Shown here piece by piece: positions 45-20,128 of a stretch of 20,210 nt of DNA. A program made the position numbers and the translations under genes. This DNA comes from Baffinella frigidus. Its lineage: Eukaryota > Cryptophyceae > Cryptomonadales > Baffinellaceae. The DNA lies in assembly GCA_026770585.1 (NCBI GenBank), contig MU646715.1, positions 209,374 through 229,583 on the forward strand, given 5' to 3'. The notes below the pieces were generated by a model. The model saw only the letters and a list, made by a program, of their open reading frames with translations. It did not search any database and was not told the origin of the DNA. How positions within the stretch are numbered: the stretch's first letter is position 1; each line of letters opens with the position of its first letter.

Positions 45-98
45 CGTTTGCTCGGCCGCAGTCCCTCCCGCGCGCGCTTTGTGTGAGACGGCGAACAC
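45..98 (-). CDS. Exon 52 (M18, truncated by the window)
   Basis: Phase 0/0, acceptor ACAG|GTG, donor ACG|GTCTGG. Encodes VFAVSHKARAGGTAAEQT, the A-R-x-G-G-T motif; the W-x-S-D-T continuation lies beyond position 1. Confidence 0.75.
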
Positions 99-3000
99 CT
101 GTAAAGGGTTTGGAGGGGTTCAGGCTTCAGGGCTCAGGGCTTAGCACGTAGGGTTCACAGTTGAAGGTTTGGGGTTCACAATTTGGGGTTTAGTGTTTAG
201 GGTTCAGGGTTCAGGATTCAGGGTTTTGAGTTCAGGGTTTCGGAGTGAGGGTTTAGTTTTGAGGGATTAGGGTCGAGGGCGAAGACCCCCAGTTCAGGGT
301 TCAGGGTTAGGGCTCACTCAAGGTTGAAGGTTCATGGTGGCTTAGTGTTTAGGGGTCAAGGTGCATACCCCCAGCGCCGCGCCCGTCGCCGTTGTTACCA
401 AGCCGCCGAGGCGCCGGTGGTTCCCGAGAGAGACCGAGAGGAGCACGGGCGTGTCGTAGGAGAGCGCTTCTGTCGATGTGCCGCCCACCTGGGGTGGGGT
501 GTGGGGGTTGGAGTGTGGGGTGTGGGGTGTGGGGTGTGGGTTTTGGGGTTTGGAGTCTGGGGTCTGGGGGGAGAGGCGCCAGAGAAGTTTAGTTTCCTCA
601 ACGGATCCTGCCTAGAGAAAATGACATTGCGGGAAAACCACTTTGACCTGTCACGGCCGAAACGGTCCAAAGGTAAATATTAAAGGTCACTCTCTGACAC
701 ACCTGGCGCTCTCCCGCAGTGACGACCATTCCCAGCGTGCACGCAATCCCCTGCGGCGCGAGGGCCCTATCCTGCCAACTGCCGCAACATCCTGCCAACG
801 GCCACCCTATCCTGTACTAACACACAAACTCTTTATCTGAGTGATAGACACCTGGCGCTCCCCCGCAGTGACGACCATCCCGAGCGTGAACGCAATACCC
901 TTGGGCGCGAGGGTCTTGACGGAAGTATCCGAGACCCACGCGGTCGCCTCTGCTGCACTCCCCTCCGCGAACCCCTGCGCCCAGGGGTTACGGTTCAGGG
1001 TTTTTGGGGTAGGTTTGCTCGGCTGAGAGGGATGACGCAGAAGGAGAGAGGAGGAGGAGGAGGAGGAGGAGGAGATATCCCCTACTATTCCCCTCAAACC
1101 CCGAAAGAACAACGAGGAGAACAAGACAGGGGATCCACGCGGTGGTCTCGCAGCCACTCCCCTCCGCGAAACTCTGCGCGCGTGGTCGGGAGTCAGGATG
1201 TCTTCAGGTGTTGGAGAAGAAGAGAAATAAAACGCAGAACACACAGAAAAGAAGAAGAACCAGAAGAATGCGGAGCGCGGGTTTAGGGTTTAGTGTTCAG
1301 GGTTCAGGGTTTATGATTTAGGGTTCTATGATTTAGGGTTTAAGGTTTAGGGTTTAGGGTTCAGGGTTGACCACGCGCGCGGCCATCGACGCATCAAAGC
1401 TCCCGAACGCATACCCACCAATCGTGACGCTCAGCGCGGCGCCGCCCGTCGGGAAGTTGGCGGGAAGCGAGACTGTTCCGAGTGAGTCCGGCGCGTCATA
1501 CGACACCGCTTCTTTGAGCGTGCCCGATGCGAGCGTGCCTGCGGAGAAGGGGCGGGGGTTAGGGGCACGTTAACACGCGCGGCGTGTGGAACACATCCGT
1601 CGACTTTGGATTGGAGGAAGCTGGCTGGGAGCGAAACGGTTCCGAGTGAGTCAGGGGCATCGTGTGGCACCGCTGACTTGAGCGTGCAGGATGCGTGCCT
1701 GCGGTGCCCAGGGAACTTGCGTTATGAGGGTGTTCTGGGTTTAGGGTTGAGAGGATAGAGGTTAGGGGATAGGGGCTAGAGGTTTTAGGGTGGAGGGGTT
1801 TAGGGAGGTGAGAGTTAAGATGTTAGGGTGAAGCCCCAGAGACGGTTGGAGGGAGCCAGGGGCGTCGTACACCACCGCTGATTTGAGGGTCCCGGATGCA
1901 AGCGTTCCTGCGGAGAAGGGTCATGGGTTACGGGCAAGTTAACAGGGTATATGGAGGTGAGGGTTGAGGGGGCACCTGCAGTGACGACGACGCGTTTGGA
2001 CGCGCCGATGCCGCGCGTCGCGATGCACGTCACCGCGGACTCCTGCGGATACGCTTTCGCCTTAGAGCTTTGGAGTTTTGGGTTTCCGTCCGACAGGATC
2101 AAGAAGAAGAAGCAGAATCGCAGAGACACGGTGGGAGTAGTACAGCGACCCGGCTTGGGGTTAGGGATTAAGTGGGGTTAGGGATTTGGTGTGTGGTGTT
2201 TAGGGTTTGGGGTTTCTGAATTAATCAGCGGGATTGCACAGATTTGAGACGAACAAGAAGAAGAAGACGAAGAATATTGCAACGGCGGGTTCGGGGGCAG
2301 TACCGAGACCCACGCGCTGCCCTGTGACCCCGTCCCACCCACCCGCGCGCCAACCTGCGTTGGGATTTGGGGTTTGGGGTTTGGGGTTTGGAGTTTGGGG
2401 TTTGGGGTTTAGGGTTCGGGGTTCGGGGTTCGGGATTTGGGGTTTAGGGTCTAGCGCGCAGAGCTGCTGCCCTCATCCAGGAGCATGCTTGGATTGGGAT
2501 TTGAGGGTTTAGGATTTGAGGTTAAGGGTTTGGGGGTTTAGGGGTCCGGGTTTGGGGTTCACCGACACGTCGCGGCTCGAAGAAAACCCCGAACCTGAGA
2601 CTGTCAGGTGACGGCTCTCCGCCTGTGTGGGGTTTAGGGTTTAGGGTTTAGGGTTTGAGGTTTAGGGTTTAGGGTTTATGGTTTATGGTTTATGGTTTAG
2701 GGTTTAGGGTTTAGGGTTTAGGGTGCAGGGTTCAGGGTTCAGGGCTTAAGGAGGGGTAAGCAGACGTTAGGCTTTAGGGTATGGTGATAGGGGTTCAGGG
2801 TTTGGGGAAGGGTAATGGGAATCACCGGGGGCATATTCAGCGTTCCCAACACGCTCTGCGAGACGTGAAGGTCGAAGGACAAGGCCTCGGTGAGACTCCC
2901 GGGGAAGATCCCGGCCGTGACGAAGAGCGGGATTGTTCGGTGCACGCCCGCGGGCGCTGTGGCTCTGACGGATGTGCCTGCGCGAGGGTTGAACGGGGGT

Positions 3001-6000
3001 TGAGTGTGGTTTGATTTGATTTAGTATGCGACCTACGGTTTGGGGTTCGGGTTCTGGAGTGTGAAGCGCGTGGGGTCTGGGGATTCAGTTTCGGGATTCG
3101 AACCTGAGAGCCAGACAGTGGCCTCGGATGCAGTGGATCCGACGCGCGCGGACGGCGTGAGGTCTGACGCGTACCCGAACGCTGACCCCGTCATGGTCAC
3201 TTCGTCGCCGGTTGGCTGCGGCGGGAGGTTGATGGCGCCAGAAGCCGCCTTCATCTGCGCCACCGGGGAAGAGAGGGCGTTGCTTCAGGGCACACTCCTG
3301 TTGGGGTGGCGCAAGGGCTGGGTCGGGCGTCGGGGTTAGGGGTGACCAACACGAGAGTGGTTCAGGGTTCACGGTGTAGAGTTCACCAACTCGGGCGTGG
3401 TTTCGGGAGTTAGGCGTGACCTCTGGGACGGAGTAGGAGAAGACGTCGAGGATCGTTGCGCGCGTCTTCGCCACCGTCACCGCGAACCTGCGGTTCGGGT
3501 TTCGGGTTTCGGGTTTCGGGTTTCGGGTTTCGGGTTTCGGGTTTCTCGGCTTCGGGTTTAAGGTAAAGGACCGCCACCGTCACCGCGAACCTGCGTTTCG
3601 GGTTTCGGGTTTCGGGTTGGGGGGTTGGGTTAGTGGTTTATGGTTTGGGGCTTGAATTTGGGGGTTCAGGGTTTCGGGTTGAGGGTTTAAGAATGAGGGT
3701 TGAGGATGTAAGGTTGAGGGTTGTGGGTTGAGATTCGATGGTTTAGGGTTTAGGGTTAGGGTTTAGGGTTTAGGGTTGAGGGTTTAGGGTTGAGGGAGTA
3801 ACCCGTGGGTGCGACCGAATCCGGTGGCAGCAACGCAGAGGAGTGCCGAGTCGGAGAACCTGATTGTAGGGTGTCGGGTTTCGGGTTCAGGGGGTATGGT
3901 TCCGGGCTCCAGGTTCCGGGTCCCGGGTCCCGGGTCCCGGGTTCCGGGTTCCGGATTTCGGGTTTCTTGTTCCGGGGTTCGGGTGAAGGGTTTCGGGAGA
4001 ACCATTCGGAACGCTCGCATGAGGTGGATCCAGCGCGCGATCGCACCTGGGTTTGTGTTTGGGGTTTGGGATTTGGAATTTGGGGTTTAGTGTTTAGTGT
4101 TTAGTGTTTTGTGTTTGGTGTTTAGTGTCGAGTGTCTAGTGTCTAGTGTCTAGTGTCTAGTGTTTATTGTATTGGGTTTGGGGTAAGTGCTCAGGGTTGA
4201 GTATGGGGTTTCGGGTTCATGGTTGCGGGTTTGGGGTGTAGGGTTCAGGGCGCGCACCGTCGAATCCACAATCCCAAGGTCGAGGCCAACAAAGATGTTG
4301 AAGCCCGCGCCGAAGCGCGCCCCGAATAGGGTGAACGCGCTCCCGCCTGGCGCCGCCGCGTTGCCCGGGGTTGACCCTGTCAGGTCTGAGGCGTTGTACC
4401 TGCGGGGTGTGGGGTTTGCGTTTGAGTTTTGCCCCTGTCAAGTCGGATGTGTTGAGCCTGGCGTGGGGTTTGGAGATTGGGGGTTGGGGTTGCCGCGTTG
4501 CCCGGGGTTGACTCTGTCAGGTCCGACGCGTTGTACCTGGTGTGAGTTTGGGGTTTGGGGTTTGCGGAGTGCAGTGTGAGGTTTAGGATCTGGGGTCTGG
4601 GGTCTAGGGTTTAGGGTTTAGGGTTTAGGGTTTAGGGTTTAGGGTTTAGGGTTTAGGGTTAGAGTTAGAGTTTGGAGTTGAGTTTTTAGGGTTTAGGGTT
4701 TAGTGATTATGGTTTGGGGAATGGGGTTTAGGATTGAGGGTTTGGGTTTGGGGGGCGTACAGGTAGGGTCCCGTGACGGTTGCGACGCGCTCCGCGATCG
4801 TGAGCACCGCGCCCACCGGCAACAGCGATCCCGCAAAGTTCACCTGCGGAGGGTTTGAAACACACGCGTTTAAGGCCCAGCATTTCATAACGCTCCACCT
4901 AACTCCGGACCATCGTCCGGCAATGGTCAGGAGTTCGTTCTGATCATATCGGGACGATGGTTAGCACTGCGCCTACCGGCACCAGCGAGCCGGCAAAGTG
5001 GACCTGCCAAGGGGTTGCGGGTGTGGGGTTGGTGGGTTGGTGGGTTGGTGGGTTGGTGGGTTGGTGGGTTGGTGGGTTGGTGGGTTGGTGGGTTGGTGGA
5101 TTGGTGGGTTGGTGGGATGGTGGTTTGGGGAAGGTTTTAGGGTTTGGGGTTTGGGGGCGGGGTTTTGGGTTCGGGGGTTGGAGTTTTGGGTTTGGGTTTG
5201 GGGTTGGGGTTTAGGGTTTAGGTTCGGGGTTTATGAAGTGGGGTTTGGGGTTTGGGGGTTAGGGATGACCTGCGACGCGTACTTGCAGAGCGCCGATGAA
5301 TCCGAGACCCACTTTGTCGCTTCGCACGCCCCGGCTGCGCCCCCCAGTCGCCCCTGCAGTGTGGATGTATGGTTTGGGGTTTGAGGGTTCGGGTAAAAAT
5401 CGGGAAACCGAGACCCACTTGGTGGTTTGGCACACCCCCGCAGCGCCCCCGAGCCGCCCCTGCACGGAGGTATTGTAGAAATGGGCTCCGCGCGGATTCA
5501 AGGTCAGGTCAGGAAAAACGTCTTTTCGAAAAAAAAACGTCGAAAACGAACTTTTATGCTATCTTAGGCATGGGCAAGATGCCTAAAATGGAATCAACCA
5601 CCCTCAAGATAGCACAAAAGTTCATTTTCGACGATTTTTTCTCAAAAAGACGTTCCTGACCTCCTCACCTCACGTTTTAGAAATCCGCGCGGAGCCCATT
5701 TCTACAATAGGGTTGGGGTGAAGGGTTTTAGGTTGAAATCGGGAATAGGACACTCATTTTGTCGCTTGGCACGCCCTGCCTGCGCCCCCCAGCCACCCCT
5801 GAGGTGTGAATGTAGGGTTTGGGGTTTGGGGTTTGGGGTTTACTGTTACGGATTTAGTGTTTAGTGTGTTCTGTTGAGGGGGGTACAGGTTTCAGGGTGT
5901 AGGGTTCAGGGTTCAGGCTTTAAGGGTTAGGGACAGGGTTTCGGGCGTACGGTTTCGGGTTTCGGGTTTCGTGTTTCGGGTTTCGGGTATGGGGTTTAGG

Positions 6001-9000
6001 GTGACGTTTGGGAGTGATCGGTACCTTGGGCGTGGAGTCGGAGACCCCGAAGTTCCCGCCGACAATCGTGACCTGCTTTCGGGTTTCAGGTTTAGGGATT
6101 TGAGTCCAGAGTTGAGGGATTAACCAAAAAGATGACACTTTGAAGTTTGGGGTTTAAGGTTCAGGGTCCGGGGTGTAGGGTCCAGGGTTTGAGAGTGGAC
6201 CGTCTTGCAGGACGTGAAGTCCGTCATAGGCTTAGAGTTTAGGGTTTAGGTTTGGGGTTAAGGATTTAGAATTCAGGATTTTTTGTCTTGCGAGTTTCCG
6301 GCTTCCAGCTTATTGATAAAGAAGAAGGGTTTGGGAGTTGACCGTCCAGCAGTCCTTGATCGACTTAGGGTGTAGGGTATCAGGTGTAGGGCTTAGGGTA
6401 GCAGGTTTAGGATTTGGGGTGTAGGTATAAGGTTTAGGAATCAGGGTTTGTGGTTGACCGTCTGGCAGGACGTGCAGTCCGTGATATCGGCGACGGCCGT
6501 GAGGTAGAGGTTGTCGAACGTGAAGGCTTTGGAGAGCGTCGATGGCGGCACGGACGGCGAGGCCACGGACACCACGATCGCCGCCTGTGTTGAGTGTTCA
6601 ATGTTAAGTCTTTAGTGTTGAGCGTTTAGTGTTTAATGTTGAGTGTTAACTGTTCAGTGTTTAGAGTGTAACGTTCAGTGTTTAGTGTTTGGAGGGTATT
6701 GGTTGCAAGGGTCAGGGTTTAGGGTTTGGGATGTGGACCTGGGGCGCAGAGCCAGGAGAGATGCGCACGATCAGCGCCGAGTCCGATACCCACACCTGCT
6801 TTATGGTTTCGAGTTTATGGTGCATACCTTATGGTTTATGGTTTGTGGTTTATGGTTGACCCTAAAAACGATACACTACCGAGCCAGGGGCTGAGGGGTC
6901 CGCACCGTCCCAACCGCGCCCGTCCCTCCGACGCGAGAGGCCGGAGAGTAGTCCGCGGTGCCGAGCTCGATGCTGGTCAGGAGGGAGAGCTGCCCGCCGA
7001 ACCGCTCGCCGAAGAGCGTGTACACCCTGCGTGATGGGTGTGGGGTTGGGGATTTACGGATTACCCCTGCGTGTGGGGTTTCAGGTTTACGCATGACGGT
7101 TAATGTTTCGGGTTCAGTAGGTAGTGTTTGGAGTGTTCGGATTAGGGTTGGGGTTCAGGGTTCAGGGTTCAGGGTTTAGGGTGTGGGGTGCAAGGCTTAT
7201 GGTTTTGGATTTAGAGTTGTGGCGTTAGGGTTCAGGGTTAGGGAATTACCCGCCCGTCTGCGGCGCGTTCCCGCCCGAGATGGACGAGACCTGGTTTCGG
7301 GTTTAGTGGTCAGTGTTTAGTGTTCAGTCTTTAGCGTTTAGCGTTTAGCGTTTAGTGTTTAGTGTTTCGGGTCCAGGGTTTAAGGTTGAGGGTTGACTGT
7401 GTGGGGTCTGGGGTTTGGGGTTCAGGGTTTGGGGTTTAGGATGGAGACCGCGATGGAGGAGTACGCGATGGAGGACGTGAGGGTGCCGGCGCGCTTGCCC
7501 ACCGTGACCGCCGCCCCCACCGGCGTGAGGAGGCCCATGTGGTTGTCGAACTTCGGAAGCTTGCAGATCACCGTGGAATCCGAGACCCACTCCGTCTCTT
7601 CGCACGCACCCTGGTTTAGGGTTGCGGGTTTTAGGGTTTAGGGTTGTGGTGCAGGTCCATGTTTAGAGTTTCGGGATTGGGGTGCTTGGTAGGGCTTAGC
7701 AACCGCCCTGCCTTGAAGCTTTAGGGTTTGGGTTTTACCGCCCGTCCGCCGATCGCCATTCCACGCCGAACAAGCCCTACCCCTTCTCTAACAGGGTCCG
7801 ATCTCATACCTCAGGACAACGTTTGTACCAGGAAAGGGTTGTACACGTAGTTGTATAACCCATACATGTATTGTACATCCTGGTCCTGGTACAAACCCGT
7901 ACAAACCCTTTTACCGCCCGGCCGCCGATCCTCGCACGCGGGGTGTGCGATTCGACGCCAAAGTTGTCTCCGTGCATCGTCACTCGGCTGCATGAGGTGC
8001 AATCTGCCCGAGTCGGTTTGGGGTTAGGGTTAGGGTTTGGGGCGTGGTGTGTTTGTTTCGGGTTTCAGGTTTTTGGGCTTTGGGTTTAGGGTTAATGGCT
8101 TTGGGTTTTGGGTTTAGGGTTTAGGGTTTGGGGTTTATTGTTTATGGTCTATTGTTTATTGTTTATTATTTACTATTTATTATTTTTTCTTTAGGGTTTA
8201 CGGTTTAGGGTTTAAGGTTTAGGGTTTAGGGTTTAGGGCGTAGGGTTTGTGGATTTATAATTTAGGTAGTGGGGTTGCGAGTTGGTTCAGGGATTAGGGT
8301 TGGGGTGTGAGGGTTGAGGGTTGGGAGGATGAGGTGTTGTGGTCGAGGGTTACCTTGCGGTTTCGGGTCAATCGAGGATTCGTGAAGGGTTTGAGGAGGG
8401 TTGAGGGTTGAGGGTTGAGGGTTGGGGGATGAGGTGTTGGGGGTGAGGGTTGGGGGATGGGGTGTTTGGGGTGAGGGGTACCCGTGAGGTTTTCGACGGC
8501 GTTGAGCGCCGGGGCGTCGTACGTGACCACGTTTGTCATCGTCCCCAACGACCTGCGTTTTCGGTTGCGGTTTAGGGTTTTGGGTTTAGGGTCCATGGTT
8601 CATGGTTTATTGTTTGTTGTTTGTTATTTATTATTTATCATGTATCATTTATTGTTTACTATTCAGGGGTTAGGGTTTAAGGTTCATGGTTTATGGTGTA
8701 TTGTTTATTGTTTATTGTTTATTGTTTATTGTTTATTGTTTATTGTTTATTGTTTATTGTTTATTGTTTATTGTTAATGGTTTATTGTTATGGTTTATTG
8801 TTCAGGGTTAAGGGTTCAGGGATTACTGGATCGAGGCGACGATTGCCTTCTCGATGAACATTCCTGGTTTTGGGAGGTGGGTTTAGGGCTTAGGGTTTGG
8901 ATGTACGGTTTAGGATTTAGGGTTTAGGGTTTAGGGTTTAGGGTTTAGGGTTTAGGGTTGCGGGTTTAGGGTTTAGGGTTTAGGGTTTAGGGTTTAGGGT

Positions 9001-12000
9001 TTAGGGAGTGCCGTGCGCGGCTTTCAGGTGCATCGCCGTCTCGCTCGTCCACACCTGCTTTAGGGTTTAGGGTTAAGGGTTCAGGGTTTGGGGTTTAGGT
9101 TTTAGGGTTTAGGGTTTAGGGTTTAGGGTTTAGGGTTTAGAGTTTAAGATTGAGTGTTTACGGTTTACGATTAACGGTTTAGGCTTTATGATTTAGGGTT
9201 CAGAGTTTTGGGTTTGGGGTGAATGGTGCAGGATTGAGACTCGAGGCTGTAAGGCAGGGTTTTCGGGTTCGCACCGACTCCTCCGAGGAAGTGCCGCCGA
9301 CCCTGGTCACCACCGAGGCGTCGTACGGCACCAGGTTCCGCCCCGTCACCTGCTTCAGGGTCAGAGACGCTTCAGGCTTTCGTGTAGGGTTAGAGCCGGT
9401 TCATTGCTTACATCATCCCAACCCGTAACCCTCTGCGTGGGGCTCAACGTGTGATTTCGGGTGTAGGGTTGGGGTGTGACCGAGACGGTGAGCCCCCCGA
9501 AGGGGTTCATGTTGCGCGGCGTGGCTGAGGCGACCGTTGGCCCGTCATACGTTAACACCTGCGGAAACGAATAAAAACATTAGTTTTGATCAACGAAAAT
9601 TACTACACACATGCTTTACTATTACTAGTATGCCCCAGTTGTGTAGTAATTTTCGTCGCGGGGTTCATGCTTCGCGGCGTCGCGGAGGCGACTGTTGGCC
9701 CGTCGTACGTCTGCACCTGCTTCGAGTCGCACCGGGTTTCGGGCTTAGGGTTTAGGGCCTAGAGTTCAAGGTTAAGGGTTGAGGGCTTGGGTTCTGGGGT
9801 TCAAAATTTATGGTGAAATATTTAGGGTTTAGGGTTGAGGGATTAGGGGTTAGGGTTTAGGGGTTTGCCTCTGACGCGGTGCCCTGATTGAGCGCGACCG
9901 TGACCCCCGCGGAGTGTGCGCCCCCAACCCCCAACCCCTTAAAAACCACTAACCTCTGCCCCTGAAAACCCTATCACTGAAAGACGGCGGTGGGGCTTTG
10001 CCTCAGAGACGGTGCCCAGGTTTCGGGTATCGGGTTTCAGGTTTCGGGTTTAGGGTTCAGGGGTTTGCCTCGGTGACGGTGCCCTGCTTGAGCCCGATGG
10101 TGACCCCCGCGGGGTGTGCGCGATACGTCCCGGCGTTGGAACCCTTGCATTTGATCGATGTCTCCGCCACCCAGATCGTCACCTGGCCGGAAGGGGTTTC
10201 GAGTTCGGCTTCAGGGGTTCGGCGGTAGAGTTTCGGTTTTGGGGTTTGGGGGTATGTTTTGGTTTCGGGGTGTAGGGTGTGGGGTCCAGGGTTCAGGATT
10301 CAGGATTCAGGGTTCAGGGTTCAGGGTTCGGGGTTCGGGGTTCGGGGTTAGTGTTCCAGGTTCAGAACCTGGGACGCCGACGCGGGGTTTGACAACGGAG
10401 TCGAACAACACATTTCGGGAGTAGGGTTTGGGGACCAGTATACCCTATACCATATACCCTATACCATATACCATACACCACATTACAGGGGTTTCGGGGG
10501 TTGGGGGACCTCCGATGCCGTGGCGCCGACGCGCGGTTTGACAGTCGAGTCATACGACGCAAAGTTCAACCCGGTCAGCGTCACGAGCCCTGTGTCAGGG
10601 TGCAGGGGTTTAGTCCCAGCATATAACATCTTCTGTTTCGCAAAGTGTCCATCTAAAATATTCCTGGTAAAAAATCAGGCATTTTAAACCTCTAAAAGCA
10701 CGGAATGGCTCCAACGCCAAGCCAAATCTGAATCTGGTTTGACGGTTGAGTCATACGACGCGAAGTTCAAGCCCGTCTACGTGACAAGGCCTGGTGTGGG
10801 GCTTAGGGTTTAGGGTTTAGGGTTTCGTGTTTGGGGTTCAGGGTTTAGGGTTTAGGGTTTAGGGTTTAGGGTTTAGGGTTTAGGGTTTAGGGTTTCGGGT
10901 TTCGGGTTTCGGGTTTCGTGTTTAGGGTTTGGGGCTTAGGGGTTGGGGTTTAGGGGTTACGGTTTTGGGTTTTGGGTTTCGGGTTTTGGATTTTGTTTTT
11001 TTGGTTAGGGGTTGGGGGTTTGAGGGTTCGGGTTTGGGGATTAGGGTTTGGGGTTTACCCGTGGGCTCCGTGGCGAGGTTGACGGGCGCGATCGTTTCGA
11101 GCACCTGCGGTTGTGGTTTGGGGTTTGGGGTTTAGAGTTTGGGGTTTGGGGTTTAGAGTTTGGGGTTTAGGACATAGGGTTTAGAGTTTAGGGTTTAGGG
11201 TTTAGGGTTTAGGGTTGAGGTTTTAGTGTTTAGGTTTTAGGGTCTATGGGATACCGGGTCGTCGTAGGAGAAGAGGTTGATCTTGGTCGAGAGGATCGGG
11301 TTGATCGTGAGCGTCGCCGTGTGCTGCCCCCCGGCCCCGCGCGGCACCTGCATTCGGAATGTCGGTTTGATTTCGTTTGAGTTGAGGGTTAAAGGTTGAG
11401 GGTGGAGGGTTGAGGGTTGAGGGTTGAAGGTTGAGGGTTGATCGTGAGGGTTGCCGTGTGCTGCCCCCCGGCTCCGCGCGGCACCTGCATTCAGGTTTTG
11501 GGTTCACGGTTCAGGGTTCATGAGAAAGAAAGAAGACGAATAGAAGAGAAAGAAAGAAAGAAGAAGAACCGAGAGAAAGAAAGAGGGCGACAAGAAGAGC
11601 ACACACGAAGAAAAAAAGAAGGAGACGAGGTGAGACAGGATCAAATCGAGGATGGAGCTCGTGGAAGTTGGAATGGACCTTGCCGTAGATGTTGGTGTCG
11701 GACACCCACCGCGTGCTTTGGCAGGCTGTCCCCCCAAGGCGCGCCTGCTTCCGGGACAGAGGCCTTAGAACAGATCCTTGGGGGTCCAGGGTTGGGAATA
11801 AGGTTTAGGGTTCCGCCACACACCAAACACCAACCCCCCCATGGCGAGCCTGCGTTCGAAACAAAGGGCTTTGAACAGAGCCCTCGAAACAAAGGGCTTT
11901 GTTTGTACAAACAAAGGGCTTTGTTTGTACAAAGCCCTCGGCTTTGTTTGTACAAAGCCCTCGAAACAAAGGGCTTTGTTCCAGGCTTCTGGGGTCCAGG

Positions 12001-15000
12001 GTTTCGAGAGGGTTCTAGGGTTCAGGGTCTCTAGGGTTCTAGGATTTCCAGAGGGTTCTACGGTTCATGGTTTCCAGGGTCCAGGGTTCAGGGTTTCGGG
12101 TTGTGCAGCCCGACCCCCCGAGACCCGCCTGCGACCCTCGCGGAGGGTTGAGGATTCGGGTTTCGGGCTGAGGGAATACGGATTAGGGGGTTGGGTTTCA
12201 GGGTGAGGAATCAGGGTTAAGGTTCCTCGTGTTTCGCAGGGGTTCGGGTTGAGGGGGTAGGGTTTGGGGGGTAGAGTTGAGGGTCTTGGGGCTGGGCGTG
12301 CGTTGGGTTTATCGTGGAGGATTCCGTAGTCCCGTGGAGGGTCTCGGATTTCGTGGACGCAGGGTTTCAGGGGTTCGGATTTCGGTTTTTGGTTTTCGGG
12401 TCCAAGGGCTAGAAACGCGCCTTTGGGGTTTGGAGTGTAGGGTTTAGGGTTTAGGGTTTAGGGTTCAGGGTTCAGGGTTCAGGGTTCAGGGTTTAGGGTT
12501 TAGGGTTTGGGGTTTAGGGTTTAGGTTTTAGGGTTGAAGGGTTGGGATTTGGGCGTGCCTTTGGTGTATCGTCGAGGATGCCGTAGTTGGCCCCGACGAA
12601 GGAGATCAGCACCCCTCCTGGTTTCGGGTTTCGGGTTTCGGGTTTTGGATTTGAGGGTTAGGGTGCAAGGTGTAAGGTTTAGGGTTTAGAGTGATGGCTT
12701 ATCGTTTAGGGTTTGGGGGGATGGTTCGAGATGATAGGGTTTCAGGTTTCGGGGGACATGGTCCAGGCACACAAAAGAGTAGGTTATAGGGTCTAGGGTG
12801 TAGTTTATAGGGTTTCGGATTGAGAAGGGTACCAAGGGCCTTGGTGTTGGACAGCGATGGGAACAAGTAATGTGGAGCGTGTACAAGTGTTTTACAGCGC
12901 GTACACGTATGAAAGAGCGCGTACAACCGTTGTAGAGCGCGACAATTACCGAGGGCCTTGGTGTTGGCCGTGATCGACATGTCATCATACGAGAACGCGA
13001 GCGTCCACGTAGGTCATTTAGCACGCGGGTACACGTATTGCAGAGCGGGCACACGTATGGCAAAGCGCGTACACATATTGTAGAGCGCGTATAACAATTG
13101 TAAAGCGCGTACAATCATTGTATAACACGGTTTATGGGGGTACCGATAGCCTTGGCGTTGGACGGCGACGTGGCGGTGATGGACATGTCATCATACGAGA
13201 ACGCGAGCGTCTTCGCCGAGACGTAGTTCGCGACCGTGGCCTCGACTGTCAGGCCCGTACCCGTCCCGGAGGGCGCGTAGCACGCCTGGTTAGGGGTCAG
13301 GGTGTGAGGTTTGGGATTTAGGGCTTGTGATTTGTGGTTTGTGATTCAGGGTGTGGGGTTCAGGGTTCAGGGTTTAGGGTTTAGGGTTTTACAATTCAGG
13401 GTTAAGGGTTCAGGGGTTTACAAGTTGAGGGTGTAGGGGGGTTCACAATAGTGGTGTCGGAGATCCAGTCGGTGCGCGAGCAGTCCGTGGCCCCCTCGCT
13501 ACAAGTATTGTAGAACGCGTACAAGAATTGTAGAGAAAATAAAATATTGCAGAGCACGTACAAGTATTGTACAGCTCTTACACGTATTGCATACTACGCA
13601 CACGTATTGCAGAGGGTTTATCTTACGATGGTGGTGTCGGAGATCCAGTCGGTACGCGGGCAGTCCGTGCCCCCCTCGCGCGCCTTCACCGTCGAGTCGA
13701 TCGGCGCGAAGTTGGAGCCTGTGCGAGAAGGTTTAGGGGTAAGCGTTGAGGGTTTGGGGGCTTGGGTTGAGACAAGATGTTTAGTGTTTAGTGATTGGTG
13801 TTTATTGTTTCGGGGGTTTACGGTTTAGGGTTTAGGGTTCGGGGTTTAGGGTTGAGGGTTTGGGGGTTGGGGGTGTGACCGAGAATGTTGCGGGCGAGCC
13901 CCCCGGAACGCACGGTGTTCCCGAAATACATGTCGACCACGTGGAGATGGTCGTAGCTGAACGCCTCCGTCACCGTGGCGATCGAGTTGTTGTACCTGCG
14001 TCCGGGTTTCGGGTTTCGGGTTTCGGGTTTCGGGTTTTAGATTTTTAGGTTCACGGGTTTATGGTTAGGGTTAGGGTTTAGGGTTTAACGCTCAGGGTTT
14101 AGGGTTTAGGGTTTAGGGTTTAGGGTTTAGGGTGTGGGGTTTAGGGTGGGGGTTTGGGGTTCAGGGTGTACGTCTCGGAGAGCTGCGTGACCGCGATCGC
14201 CCGCGCGTACAGCGGTACGCCTGATCAGGGGTTGCGGGTCAGTGTTTGGGTTTATTGTTTAGTGTTTAGTGATGAGTGTTTAGGGTTCAGTGTTCATTGT
14301 TCAGGGTTGAGCATTTTTGGGTTCAGGGTTCAGGGTTCAGGGTTCAGGGTTTGGGGATCAGAGCTCAGTGTTTAGGGTTCAGGGTGTAAGGTGTATGGTG
14401 TAGGGTGTAGGGTGTAGAGTTGAGGGGGTACCCCCCGCGACAGCGCACCGGAGCGCAGTGTCAGACAACCACTCCGTGTGCTCCGCGGCCGTCCCCCCCA
14501 GCCGCGCCATGCTCGAATACTCGACTTGGCCCAACTGCGCGCCGAAGACCGTGAGCAGCGCGAGGTTGGTGATGCCCGACGTGGGGCCGTTGGACGTCGC
14601 AGCGGGCACGTTGACGAGCACGTGGGCGTCGTAGGTCAGCAGTCCCGTCACGGTCCCCGTCGCGCGGTTGATCGTCGCCGTCGCCACCCGCGCCTCCAGC
14701 CGCCCTGACGAAACGTGTCGTGTCCTGTTTAGTACCAGGAAACCCTCTGTCGTGTCCAGGTTAGTACTGGGGAATGCAGTGGATAGTCAACTGCGAAGAT
14801 CGTCGCCGTCGCCAGTCGGGCCTCCAACCGCCCTGGCAAGCCGAGGAGACGTCAGCACAGAGGCAGTGCCACGTCAGCACCTCCTGAACCCTGCACGCCG
14901 CACCCTGAATCCTGGACCCTGGACATATGGGGGCTCGTAACCTGACGAGGCGCGGGCGACGACGGCGGAGTCGGAGACCCACGAGGAGGCCTCGGTGCCC

Positions 15001-18000
15001 GTCCCGCCGATCCGCGCGTTCATCGAGAAGTCGAACGACCTGTGTCGTGTCCTGTTTAGTACCAGGAAACCCTGTGCCGTGTCCATGTGACTACCAGGAA
15101 ATGCAGTGGTTGGTCAAATGCAGTGATTAGTCAAGTTCATCGAAAAGTCGAACAACCTGCGAGGGGGAGAAAAGTGCGTTATTTTGGGGTACCTAAAACC
15201 TAAGCCATCACCAACGATAAACCCTCACGGTTGGGATTTATGGTCCAGGGTTTATGGTGGTAGTGGTCGCACCCGAAGGTAAGGCCGATGATGGTGACAG
15301 AGACGGCGCCCGTTTTGGGCAAGTTGCGCTGCAATGACCGAACGACTGATCCGGGCAGAGTTTGAACCAGGAAAGCCTCTGTCGCGTCCAGTTGCGTACC
15401 AGGAAATGCAGTGATTAGTCAACTGTGTGGCCGGAAGCATTACCCGAAGGTGAGGCCGATGATGATGAAAAAGTCGAGAGTGGAACGTCTCAAAGAAAAG
15501 TTAACTTAAGGTAACGGTGGATTACCCGAAAGTGAGGCCGATGATGGTGACGGAGATGGCGCCGGTCTTGGGCAAGTTGCGCTGCACGGACCGGATCACA
15601 ACCCCCGCGTCGAACCTGGTGTGGTGTTGACAGTTTAGTGTTGACATTTGAATCCTAAACACTAAACACTGAACACTCAAAACCCAAAACCCAACGGCCA
15701 ACACTAAAAACTAAACACTAAACACTAAACACTAAACACTCAATATTGCAGAGCCACAGACGGGCTCACAGTCATGAGAATCGTGGCTCCAGTTCTGTAT
15801 GGGCTGAGCGCAAATGCAAGGTTGTCGAACCTGGTGTAGTGTTTATAGTTTAGTGTTTATAGTTTAGTGTTTAGTGTTTAGTGTTTGGTTTTTAGTTTTT
15901 AGTGTTTAGTGTTCAGGATTCAAATGTGATTTAAATTTGATTTAAAATGGATCGTCCGGGTGAGGAGGCGGGGCTCGGGCTTACGAGAAGGAGTTTGTGA
16001 TCGTGCCCGCCACGTCTACCCGGTGCCCGGCCGTCACGATCACCTGTTCCAGGATTCGGGTTTAGGGTGGTTTCGGGTCTCGGGTTTCGGATTTCTTCGG
16101 GTTTCTTCGGGTTTCGGGATTAGAGTGGTTTCGGGTTTCGGGTTCGGATTTCGGGGTTCAGGGCTGGAGTTTGGGAATCCGCTCACCGAGATGTGCGCGC
16201 CTTTCGAGATTCGGGTTTCAAGTTTCGGGTTTCGAGTGGTTTCGACTTTCGGGTCTCGAGTGGTTTCGGGTTTCGGGTCTCGGGTTTCGGGTTTCGGGTT
16301 TCGGGTTTCGGGTTTCGGGTTTCGGGTTTCGGGTTTCGGGTTTCGGGTTTCGGGTTTCGGGTTTGACCGAGATCTGCGCGCCGAAACCGGGCGGCATCAA
16401 CCCCCGCACGCTCGTGTCCGACCCCTGGTGTAGGGTTTGGGGTTTGGGGTTTGGGGTGTGGGGTGTGGGGTTTGGAGTTTGGGGTTTGGGGTTTGGGGTT
16501 TGGGATTTGGGGATCATGGTTTGGGGCTCAGGGTTTAGGTGTTGGGTGTTGGGTGTAAGTGCTTAGTGTTCAGTGTTTAGGGTTGAGATTTTAGATTGTC
16601 GCAATAGTCACGCGATTGGTGGAGTTACGGGTATAGGGTCTAGATTTAGGGGTGAGGGTATAGGGATCACCCATTCGGTCGAAACAAACGCCGTCAGGTC
16701 TTAGTGTTTCGGGTTCAGGGTTCAGGGTTTCAGGGTTTCGGGGTTTAGGGTTTGGGATTCAGGGGTCAGGGGGTAGGGGTTACCCATTCGGTGGACGCGA
16801 AGGCCGTCGGGTCGAGGCGCAGCGCGGGCGTGTGGTCCGCCGACGCCAGACCGGACCTGCGGTTTCGGATTCGGGGATTAGGATTCGAGATTGCGGTTTC
16901 GGGTTTCGGTTCTGGGTTTCGGGTTTCGGGTAGAGGATTTATGGTTCGGGGTGTAGGGTCATCGCCAACGTCTCGGGGTCCAGTCTGGTGGTCGGGAACT
17001 ACGGTTGTTGGGTTGAAAAAGAGGGGGCAAACCCCGAGACGTTGGCGATAATCTCCGCGGCAATCGGGTTCCCGTTTGTCGCTGAGGATCCGCTGAGGCT
17101 CGGCGCGTCGAACGTCACCGCTTCCGTCACGTACCGCGCCACTCCTGGTTTTGGGGGTTTGCGTTTTGAGCTTTGGGTTTTGGGTTTTGGGTTTTGGGAT
17201 TTGGGTTTTGGGTTTTGTTTTTTGTTTTTTTGGGTGGGGTTGGGGTGTTGGGGTTTCGGGGGTTTGGCAATAGGAGTTCGGGATTTGGGATTTGGGATTT
17301 GGGATTAGGGTTTTGAAATGAAGGTTTTAGGGTCTAGAGTTGGGGGGGTTAGGGGTTGGACCTGGGTTGATGGTCGCGGCTACGGTTTGGTAGAAGCCTC
17401 CGCCCGCGGCTGGCTGGCACGTGGCCGCAGTGTCGCTGAGCCACGCGGACGCCTCGCACGTCGTTCCCCCGAGGCGCGCCACGGGCGAGGAGTCGCTCCG
17501 CGCGAAGCTCGACCCCGCGATTTCCAGCAGGCTGATCACACTCCGGAGCGGGGGCGTGTTGCCGGGCGCGACGGTGCGGATGGAGATGTCGTCGTAGGTG
17601 ACTGTCTCCGTCATCGTGCCCACCTGCCGCCCCGCAGTGTTTGGTTCAATTTCGCACCGTTCCAGGGGGAAATTGGCCCAATCTCCATCCTTGATTTGAT
17701 CCACTTCGGAGGGACTCGCAACCACTCTAGACCGTGAAACATGAACCCTAGGTGCTGGTGGAGATGCCGTCGTAGCTTACCGTCTCCGTCATCGTGCCCG
17801 CCTGGTTTGGTGTTTGGTGTTTGGTGTTTGGGGTTCGGGGTTTGGGGTTCAGAGTTCAGGGTTCAGGGTTCAGGGTTCAGGGTTCAGGGTTCAGGGTTCA
17901 GGGTTCAGGGTTCAGCTGGCAAATGGCGCTATCGGCGCAAAAGGGCCAACGCAAAAAGGGTTTGGACGAACCTGAAGTCCCACAGTGATAGCGACAAGCC

Positions 18001-20128: not shown

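Follow-up and report, generated by a model that had tools for sequence, protein, structure and literature searches.

Introns of a TIG/IPT-repeat gene in the cryptophyte alga Baffinella frigidus contain partial copies of the ends of neighboring exons, each set off by an insert from the junction that it copies. These copies, here called echoes, almost always carry one splice site of their exon and never both. We consider it likely that they arose by repair of staggered breaks with captured filler and were retained at exon edges by the rebuilt splice site. The window, the whole 20,210-nt stretch of DNA that was analysed, is part of a genome assembly of 382 Mb in 1364 contigs; its features are listed in Table 1.

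Table 1. Gene, exon-edge echoes (minus strand) and inserts in the window.
Feature	Position	Strand	Remarks
TIG/IPT-repeat gene, 45-exon stretch	2846-20128	-	hand-curated chain; intron-rich
donor-side echo of exon 20067-20128	19852-19904	-	50/53 identical, GT kept
22-bp minisatellite insert between copies	19905-20046		dispersed genome family
acceptor-side echo of exon 18637-18720	18890-18942	-	52/53 identical, starts at CCAG
GTACA 20-mer type insert	18725-18889
acceptor-side echo of exon 17362-17623	17751-17799	-	43/49, similarity from CAG
unique-looking insert	17627-17750		one 43-nt match among loci compared
donor-side echo of exon 16784-16856	16671-16700	-	24/30, GT kept
donor-side echo of exon 16368-16424	16187-16201	-	14/15, GT kept
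long donor-side echo of exon 15526-15615	15273-15340	-	60/68, similarity up to GT
short donor-side echo of exon 15526-15615	15444-15468	-	23/25
acceptor-side echo of exon 14942-15039	15135-15156	-	20/22, similarity from CAG
32-mer element insert	15043-15134		copies also in gaps 14716-14794, 15366-15425
acceptor-side echo of exon 14432-14704	14798-14832	-	31/35, similarity from CAG
donor-side echo of exon 13627-13718	13448-13499	-	48/52, similarity up to GT
GTACA 20-mer insert	13500-13624
donor-side echo of exon 13144-13285	12965-13005	-	39/41; junction reached across deletion only, by eye
second donor-side echo of exon 13144-13285	12838-12857	-	18/20
donor-side echo of exon 12559-12617, GC donor	12303-12330	-	24/28
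acceptor-side echo of exon 11255-11347	11435-11484	-	47/50
acceptor-side echo of exon 10510-10589	10736-10788	-	44/53
unique-looking insert	10593-10735		short partial matches in other loci
donor-side echo of exon 10510-10589 without exon end (exception)	10375-10402	-	24/28, 14 nt short of junction
donor-side echo of exon 10069-10182, GC donor	9877-9921	-	40/45
acceptor-side echo of exon 9481-9558	9660-9710	-	45/51
hairpin-bearing insert, dispersed hairpin family	9562-9659
donor-side echo of exon 7915-8003	7739-7754	-	15/16, GT kept
donor-side echo of exon 6459-6584	6201-6228	-	25/28
outer acceptor-side echo of exon 5270-5353	5743-5798	-	46/56
inner acceptor-side echo of exon 5270-5353	5404-5459	-	46/56
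TA-type MITE inside echo gap	5471-5709		at least 40 genome copies
acceptor-side echo of exon 4761-4843	4955-4999	-	38/45
acceptor-side echo of exon 4258-4399	4492-4536	-	42/45
second acceptor-side echo of exon 4258-4399	4429-4454	-	21/26
acceptor-side echo of exon 3421-3487	3572-3590	-	19/19
extra pair outside chain, donor type	699-764/848-913	-	splice-like motif only
extra pairs outside chain, acceptor type	933-980/1132-1179, 1452-1544/1616-1704, 1469-1575/1839-1944	-	splice-like motif only

An intron-rich TIG/IPT-repeat gene

Exons were located with a simple hidden Markov scan, and a chain of 45 exons on the minus strand was then fixed by hand. The spliced frame comprises 1387 codons and is free of stops. 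All 44 introns end in CAG and begin with GT (40) or GC (4), sites that the curation favored. The first base of the downstream exon is G in 42 of 44 cases and the second is T in 23, CAG/GT being the commonest acceptor context among these introns. Further exon-like stretches lie to the left of position 2846, outside the curated chain. TIG/IPT-domain matches were found in five of the ten pieces scanned (E up to 1), one of them above the Pfam cut-off. A first protein search gave no match; a search with part of the translation returned six relatives, one of which is named from B. frigidus. No second allele of the gene was reported, and among other protein matches the one with the best E-value has 40% identity. 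Searches of Rfam, at the gathering score, and of plasmids returned no match.

Two TIG-repeat matches in the same genome, G000:C4:1746603-1753037 and G000:C376:15036-27740, lie in frames that run without interruption for 2405 and up to 1712 aa and are apparently intron-free, in contrast to the window gene with its at least 45 exons. The introns across the window (1-20210) are rich in degenerate telomere-like 7-mers, nearly all C-rich in the sense orientation; the plus strand contains TTTAGGG 158 times and CCCTAAA once. CTAAAC within these arrays resembles the branch-point consensus and could act as a branch point.

Exon edges are duplicated in the adjacent introns

Each exon edge was aligned, as an exon-only query, to the adjacent intron, with the gene's other introns as the null and a score of at least 24 required. 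Copies were present for 22 of the 88 exon ends, where 0.43 would be expected by chance: 11 of 44 acceptor edges (0.24 expected) and 11 of 44 donor edges (0.19 expected). With second copies counted, 26 echoes, 13 on each side, are found in 20 of the 44 introns. Their exon part spans 15-68 nt at 80-100% identity, and the insert, taken as the distance to the copied junction, measures 29-389 nt. A preliminary description of this DNA had listed about 36 echoes (19 acceptor-side, 17 donor-side). The echoes are real, but about 30 are firm, namely these 26 and four outside the chain; some of the shorter ones were seen by eye and fall below the threshold.

Introns of low-complexity 7-mers could mimic repeats, and mismatched flanks scored up to 141 in one unfiltered comparison described below. 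Yet the possibility that the echoes reflect chance similarity or an assembly artefact is negligible, because the queries were exon-only and set against other introns, the highly similar copies enclose differing inserts, and 57,924 bases of Markov-shuffled sequence yielded no gapped direct pair. These results rule out a chance-level echo frequency.

The splice site lies within the copy in 24 of 26 echoes by alignment, and in 25 when the gapped case is included. Acceptor echoes retain CAG in 13 of 13 cases. Donor echoes retain GT or GC in 11 of 13 by alignment, and a further one (12965-13005) does so when read by eye over a deletion. The earlier statement that each echo includes the adjacent splice site therefore needs one exception, 10375-10402, which lacks the exon end. 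The companion statement, that no echo has both sites of its exon, stands (0/26); the closest approach is a copy of 58 of the 62 nt of exon 20067-20128.

Ungapped similarity ends within 1 nt of CAG or GT in 11 of the 26 echoes, three of which may continue with gaps. In most of the rest, leaving aside the two echoes that do not reach the junction, it continues into the intron for 2 to nearly 60 nt, often across 7-mer repeats whose alignment is difficult. The sharp ends may be break positions or may reflect later turnover of intron sequence. Short duplication between the start of an intron and the start of the next exon was in weak excess at a few offsets only. By eye, an exon end near 17033 (17033-17051) has an inverted copy some 50 nt from it, at 16964-16982.

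None of the 26 local alignments contains an indel. Echo and exon differ at 23 first, 20 second and 68 third codon positions, and 67 of these 111 differences are synonymous, compared with 27% expected at random. Together with the retained splice sites, this pattern could be read as function, the partial exons being conserved for use in alternative or recursive splicing. The third-position excess looks modest, however, once matched for base context (our estimate from the counts), and a constrained exon compared with a drifting copy would yield much of it. What exceeds the prediction for a freely drifting echo hints only weakly at constraint. No echo has a second splice site, and most would presumably add frame-breaking inserts if used. 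We rejected function as the explanation, leaving a small chance that some echoes serve in splicing.

Echo and insert together account for the added intron length

The median length is 373.5 nt for introns with an echo and 176 nt for those without. Subtracting both echo and insert gives a median of 194.5 nt (P = 0.69 versus the others), whereas subtracting the echo alone leaves 343 nt, still longer than the others (P = 1.6e-6). Where an intron has several echoes on one side, only the outermost was used. All 20 echo introns retain 109-557 nt beside the added unit, a length like that of ordinary introns. Echo plus insert is thus an added unit and not rearranged intron. Echoes are present in 19 of 21 introns of at least 300 nt and in 1 of 23 shorter ones, with the 300-nt cut set after the lengths were known. 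The claim that echoes flank nearly every intron insert fits these long introns but not the full set, in which 20 of 44 have an echo.

A simpler event would be the pasting of a short exon-edge copy into an already long intron, so that the intervening sequence is old intron. Local repetition is indeed pervasive, with 545 of 835 random control segments having a second match in their own locus. A length-biased control, in which introns were drawn by length from the pooled set, set the data apart from this model at P = 0.056 only; the arithmetic therefore rests mainly on the comparison between echo introns and the others. We nevertheless regard such pasting as very unlikely, given that introns stripped of the duplication alone remain far longer than the others, that the insert is missing from related copies elsewhere, and that the 22-mer element lies flush between copies.

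Inserts of several types lie between long duplications

The inserts named in the preliminary description are all present: the MITE at 5471-5709, hairpins near 9593 and 7821, GTACA 20-mer arrays, the 22-bp minisatellite at 19.9-20.03 kb, and unique-looking sequence at 10593-10735 and 17627-17750. A genome search with the minisatellite (from 19905-20046) gave at least 67 matches. We retrieved 29 copies; L042 and L059 were dropped for masked flanks, and 28 copies, including the window's, could be evaluated. A complex direct duplication spans the element in 18 of the 28 and is flush on both sides in 15, compared with 55 of 1500 random intervals of matched lengths (3.7%; p = 7e-15); the other 13 copies lack a flush duplication. 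Without filtering, 19 of 28 copies reached a score of at least 40, but the mismatched-flank null then rose to 141, probably through 7-mers, and because of this inflation the filtered count is used. Flush duplications range from 24 to 81 nt, and one pair, identical over 46 of 46 positions, is probably recent.

The ends of these arrays point in two directions. In most copies the array is separated from the duplication by unrelated bases, an argument for filler. On the other hand, 8 of 18 arrays have a start phase in common, a possible sign of a preferred end, while 10 start at other phases. In 15 of 18 duplications, both copies have GGT no more than 20 nt from their intron-side end, compared with 0.49 for single random windows (p = 0.003), the gene context of the copies being judged from motifs in the duplications only.

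Such features would suit a dedicated mobile system in which minisatellite-type elements are inserted by an enzyme with a long, variable stagger and a preference for exon-intron junctions, akin to introners with very long target duplications. The dispersal of the 22-mer family, its flush duplications, the shared phase, the GGT motif, and the echoes that end within 1 nt of a splice site all fit. The varied phases of the remaining arrays, the extra bases beside them and the 13 copies without a flush duplication do not, nor does the finding that several unrelated insert types with no common terminal motif share the same duplication. We consider a system of this kind unlikely.

Other families behave differently. 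The MITE family has TA at both ends, duplicates TA, and comprises at least 40 copies at 97-100% identity; it was probably active recently. A flush long duplication was found at 0 of 16 MITE copies tested (one masked MITE locus was left out), contradicting the idea that MITE insertion caused the echo and indicating that the MITE lies in the window's gap without having made it. The hairpin family, represented by the insert near 9593 with its inverted repeat, has a flush long duplication at 1 of 24 copies, the window's own. The GTACA 20-mer supplies four inserts in echo gaps of the window, and by eye a duplication accompanies it at 1 of 6 outside places; we rejected it as a second replicate of the 22-mer pattern. 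At L066 (1-110 and 404-531), a 128-nt direct duplication surrounds a GTACA array together with a partial third copy. The 32-mer element occupies three echo gaps of the gene (14716-14794, 15043-15134 and 15366-15425). A genome search that skips common words placed it at two sites, both in the window gene, which suggests spread by local copying.

Gapped direct duplications occur across the genome

To place the window in context, we counted gapped direct pairs, leaving out pairs of 7-mer repeats, tandem arrays and low-complexity sequence. The window contains 11.9 pairs per 10 kb, and 16 other loci (131 kb unmasked, chosen for holding the MITE) contain 5.4-20. Of the 17 comparison loci, 16 are MITE-chosen and several are only partly readable; the one chosen independently has 5 pairs in 4976 readable bases. 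The same self-comparison gave none in 50 kb of E. coli, as in the shuffled sequence. Since the density elsewhere is similar, the window is not special in this respect. Gap sizes peak at 50-150 nt with few below 25 nt, i.e. filler-free copies are rare.

Several possible determinants of these pairs were rejected. Borders of 7-mer arrays are not a convincing hot spot: they coincide with 6 of 22 pairs in the window (7.6 expected) and 26 of 155 in other loci (19.1 expected), a value reached by 10 of 200 shifted sets. Inserts are not preferentially local copies either, as same-locus matches were found for 12 of 22 inserts versus 60 of 110 random segments in one set and for 109 of 167 versus 545 of 835 in another, with no difference. 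Among 100 pairs we found no shared motif at insert ends. At duplication borders elsewhere, the splice-like motifs CAG (134 versus 93 expected) and ACCT (45 versus 22) are enriched, although both copies were counted and GAAA and other words are enriched too.

Related copies with and without the insert support reading the echoes as target duplications, as does the 22-mer family lying between long duplications elsewhere. At L013, one of three related segments has the form duplication, 91-nt insert, duplication, and two have a single 28-nt version. Among repeated segments of all loci, 35 insertion places comprise 16 with a duplication of at least 18 nt and 19 with none to 6 nt; several of the 16 share a site, and at least two of ten inspected are low-complexity (CT-rich, GAG-rich) and should be discounted. 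Because a deletion between copies could yield the same contrast, it does not prove the direction of events.

A model for intron growth by break repair

In the model that we favor, each echo and the exon edge that it matches are the two halves of a target-site duplication. A double-strand break whose nicks lie far apart (about 15-80 nt) would open the DNA at an exon edge, and fill-in of the overhangs would duplicate that edge with its splice site. Filler of about 30-390 nt, such as a minisatellite or 7-mer array, would then be joined between the copies. With the splice site present in the duplicated piece, the filler and one copy could still be spliced out, leaving a longer intron. The open spliced frame suggests that the splice sites in the echoes are skipped. 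Direct duplications flank the inserts of the 26 echoes and 15 of 28 copies of the 22-mer; their lengths vary (15-68 and 24-81 nt) and no terminal motif is shared, yet 8 of 18 arrays share a start phase. The proposed anatomy, in which an insert lies within a long target duplication and the splice site is thereby rebuilt, is supported by the echoes and the length arithmetic. Against the model, the 11 sharp echo ends are sharper than random offset nicks predict, and copies lacking filler are rare here whereas tandem duplications are described as common in rice.

The preliminary description placed staggered breaks near exon edges. The anatomy of insert and long duplication agrees with such breaks, but they need not favor exon edges: given the similar density in other loci and no clear excess at 7-mer borders, the placement may be due to selection. 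Breaks of this type appear to occur genome-wide, and a coding gene would keep those that span exactly one splice site of an exon. An insertion within an exon, or duplication of a whole exon, would not persist because it would alter the protein; this would account for the presence of one splice site in nearly every echo and of both in none. A bolder reading, which we offer tentatively and think possible though doubtful, is that almost all long introns are built up from successive minisatellite-type inserts, best seen in the 22-bp family, spread among genes by break-and-copy with 25-80 nt staggers and a bias to exon-intron junctions; these would form a new class of intron-growing insert.

Intron growth, and the survival of genes that receive large insertions, are usually guessed from worn scars, whereas the scars described here can be read. 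Single events and their sizes are marked by duplicated exon edges, which suggest that a rebuilt splice site lets an insertion persist. A second strain of the species would make the rate and mechanism of intron growth directly measurable.

Comparison with known systems

The preliminary description knew of no intron-growth system with this signature. That was too strong, as parallels are described for rice, horse and Daphnia (PMC7407515, PMC7215372, PMC3443670), although the titles and abstract openings consulted, on introners, intron gain, break repair and cryptophyte introns, mention no long exon-edge duplication as a route of intron growth.

Rice carries insertions of 10-1000 bp, some with filler from nearby, whose tandem or partial duplications a review (PMC7407515) explains by synchronous asymmetrical nicks followed by end joining, a process termed ‘patch-mediated’ double-strand break repair (Vaughn and Bennetzen 2014); a paper title calls tandem duplications in rice common. 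Our duplications resemble these in the offset nicks proposed and in the filler of some, but nearly always enclose filler, and many straddle splice sites and so enlarge introns. In Daphnia, 43% of gained introns are bordered by short direct repeats (PMC3443670), and there, as here, repeats around inserted DNA are interpreted as the product of staggered breaks that were repaired with filler. The Daphnia repeats are short and the introns new, whereas the 15-68 nt copies described here enlarge existing introns.

Introners are dispersed, like the 22-mer family; they lie within genes and, as proposed here, recruit a splice site from the duplicated target. Target duplications are 3-9 bp in some families (PMC9860276), and direct repeats are 3-5 nt in Amoebophrya (PMC7789003). 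Apart from the inverted repeat of the hairpin insert near 9593, introner-type short target duplications and/or terminal inverted repeats were not found here: the duplications around the 22-mer are long and variable, and inserts share no ends. Nor did insertion create a new intron in any of the 20 echo introns, each of which keeps intron sequence of its own beside the added unit.

Interstitial telomeric repeats of horse and human are repeat arrays inserted at breaks, with direct target duplication from a staggered break at a few horse loci (PMC7215372). Here the inserts are of many types and the duplications lie on exon edges. Finally, introns can be gained by tandem genomic duplication of AGGT (PMC3443670; PMC4974935), in which a duplicated splice motif similarly lets new DNA be removed. 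In our case the edge of an existing intron is duplicated, and instead of adjacent copies we find copies separated by inserts of other sequence. Parallels to the echoes therefore exist in several systems; their scale and the apparent growth of introns set them apart.
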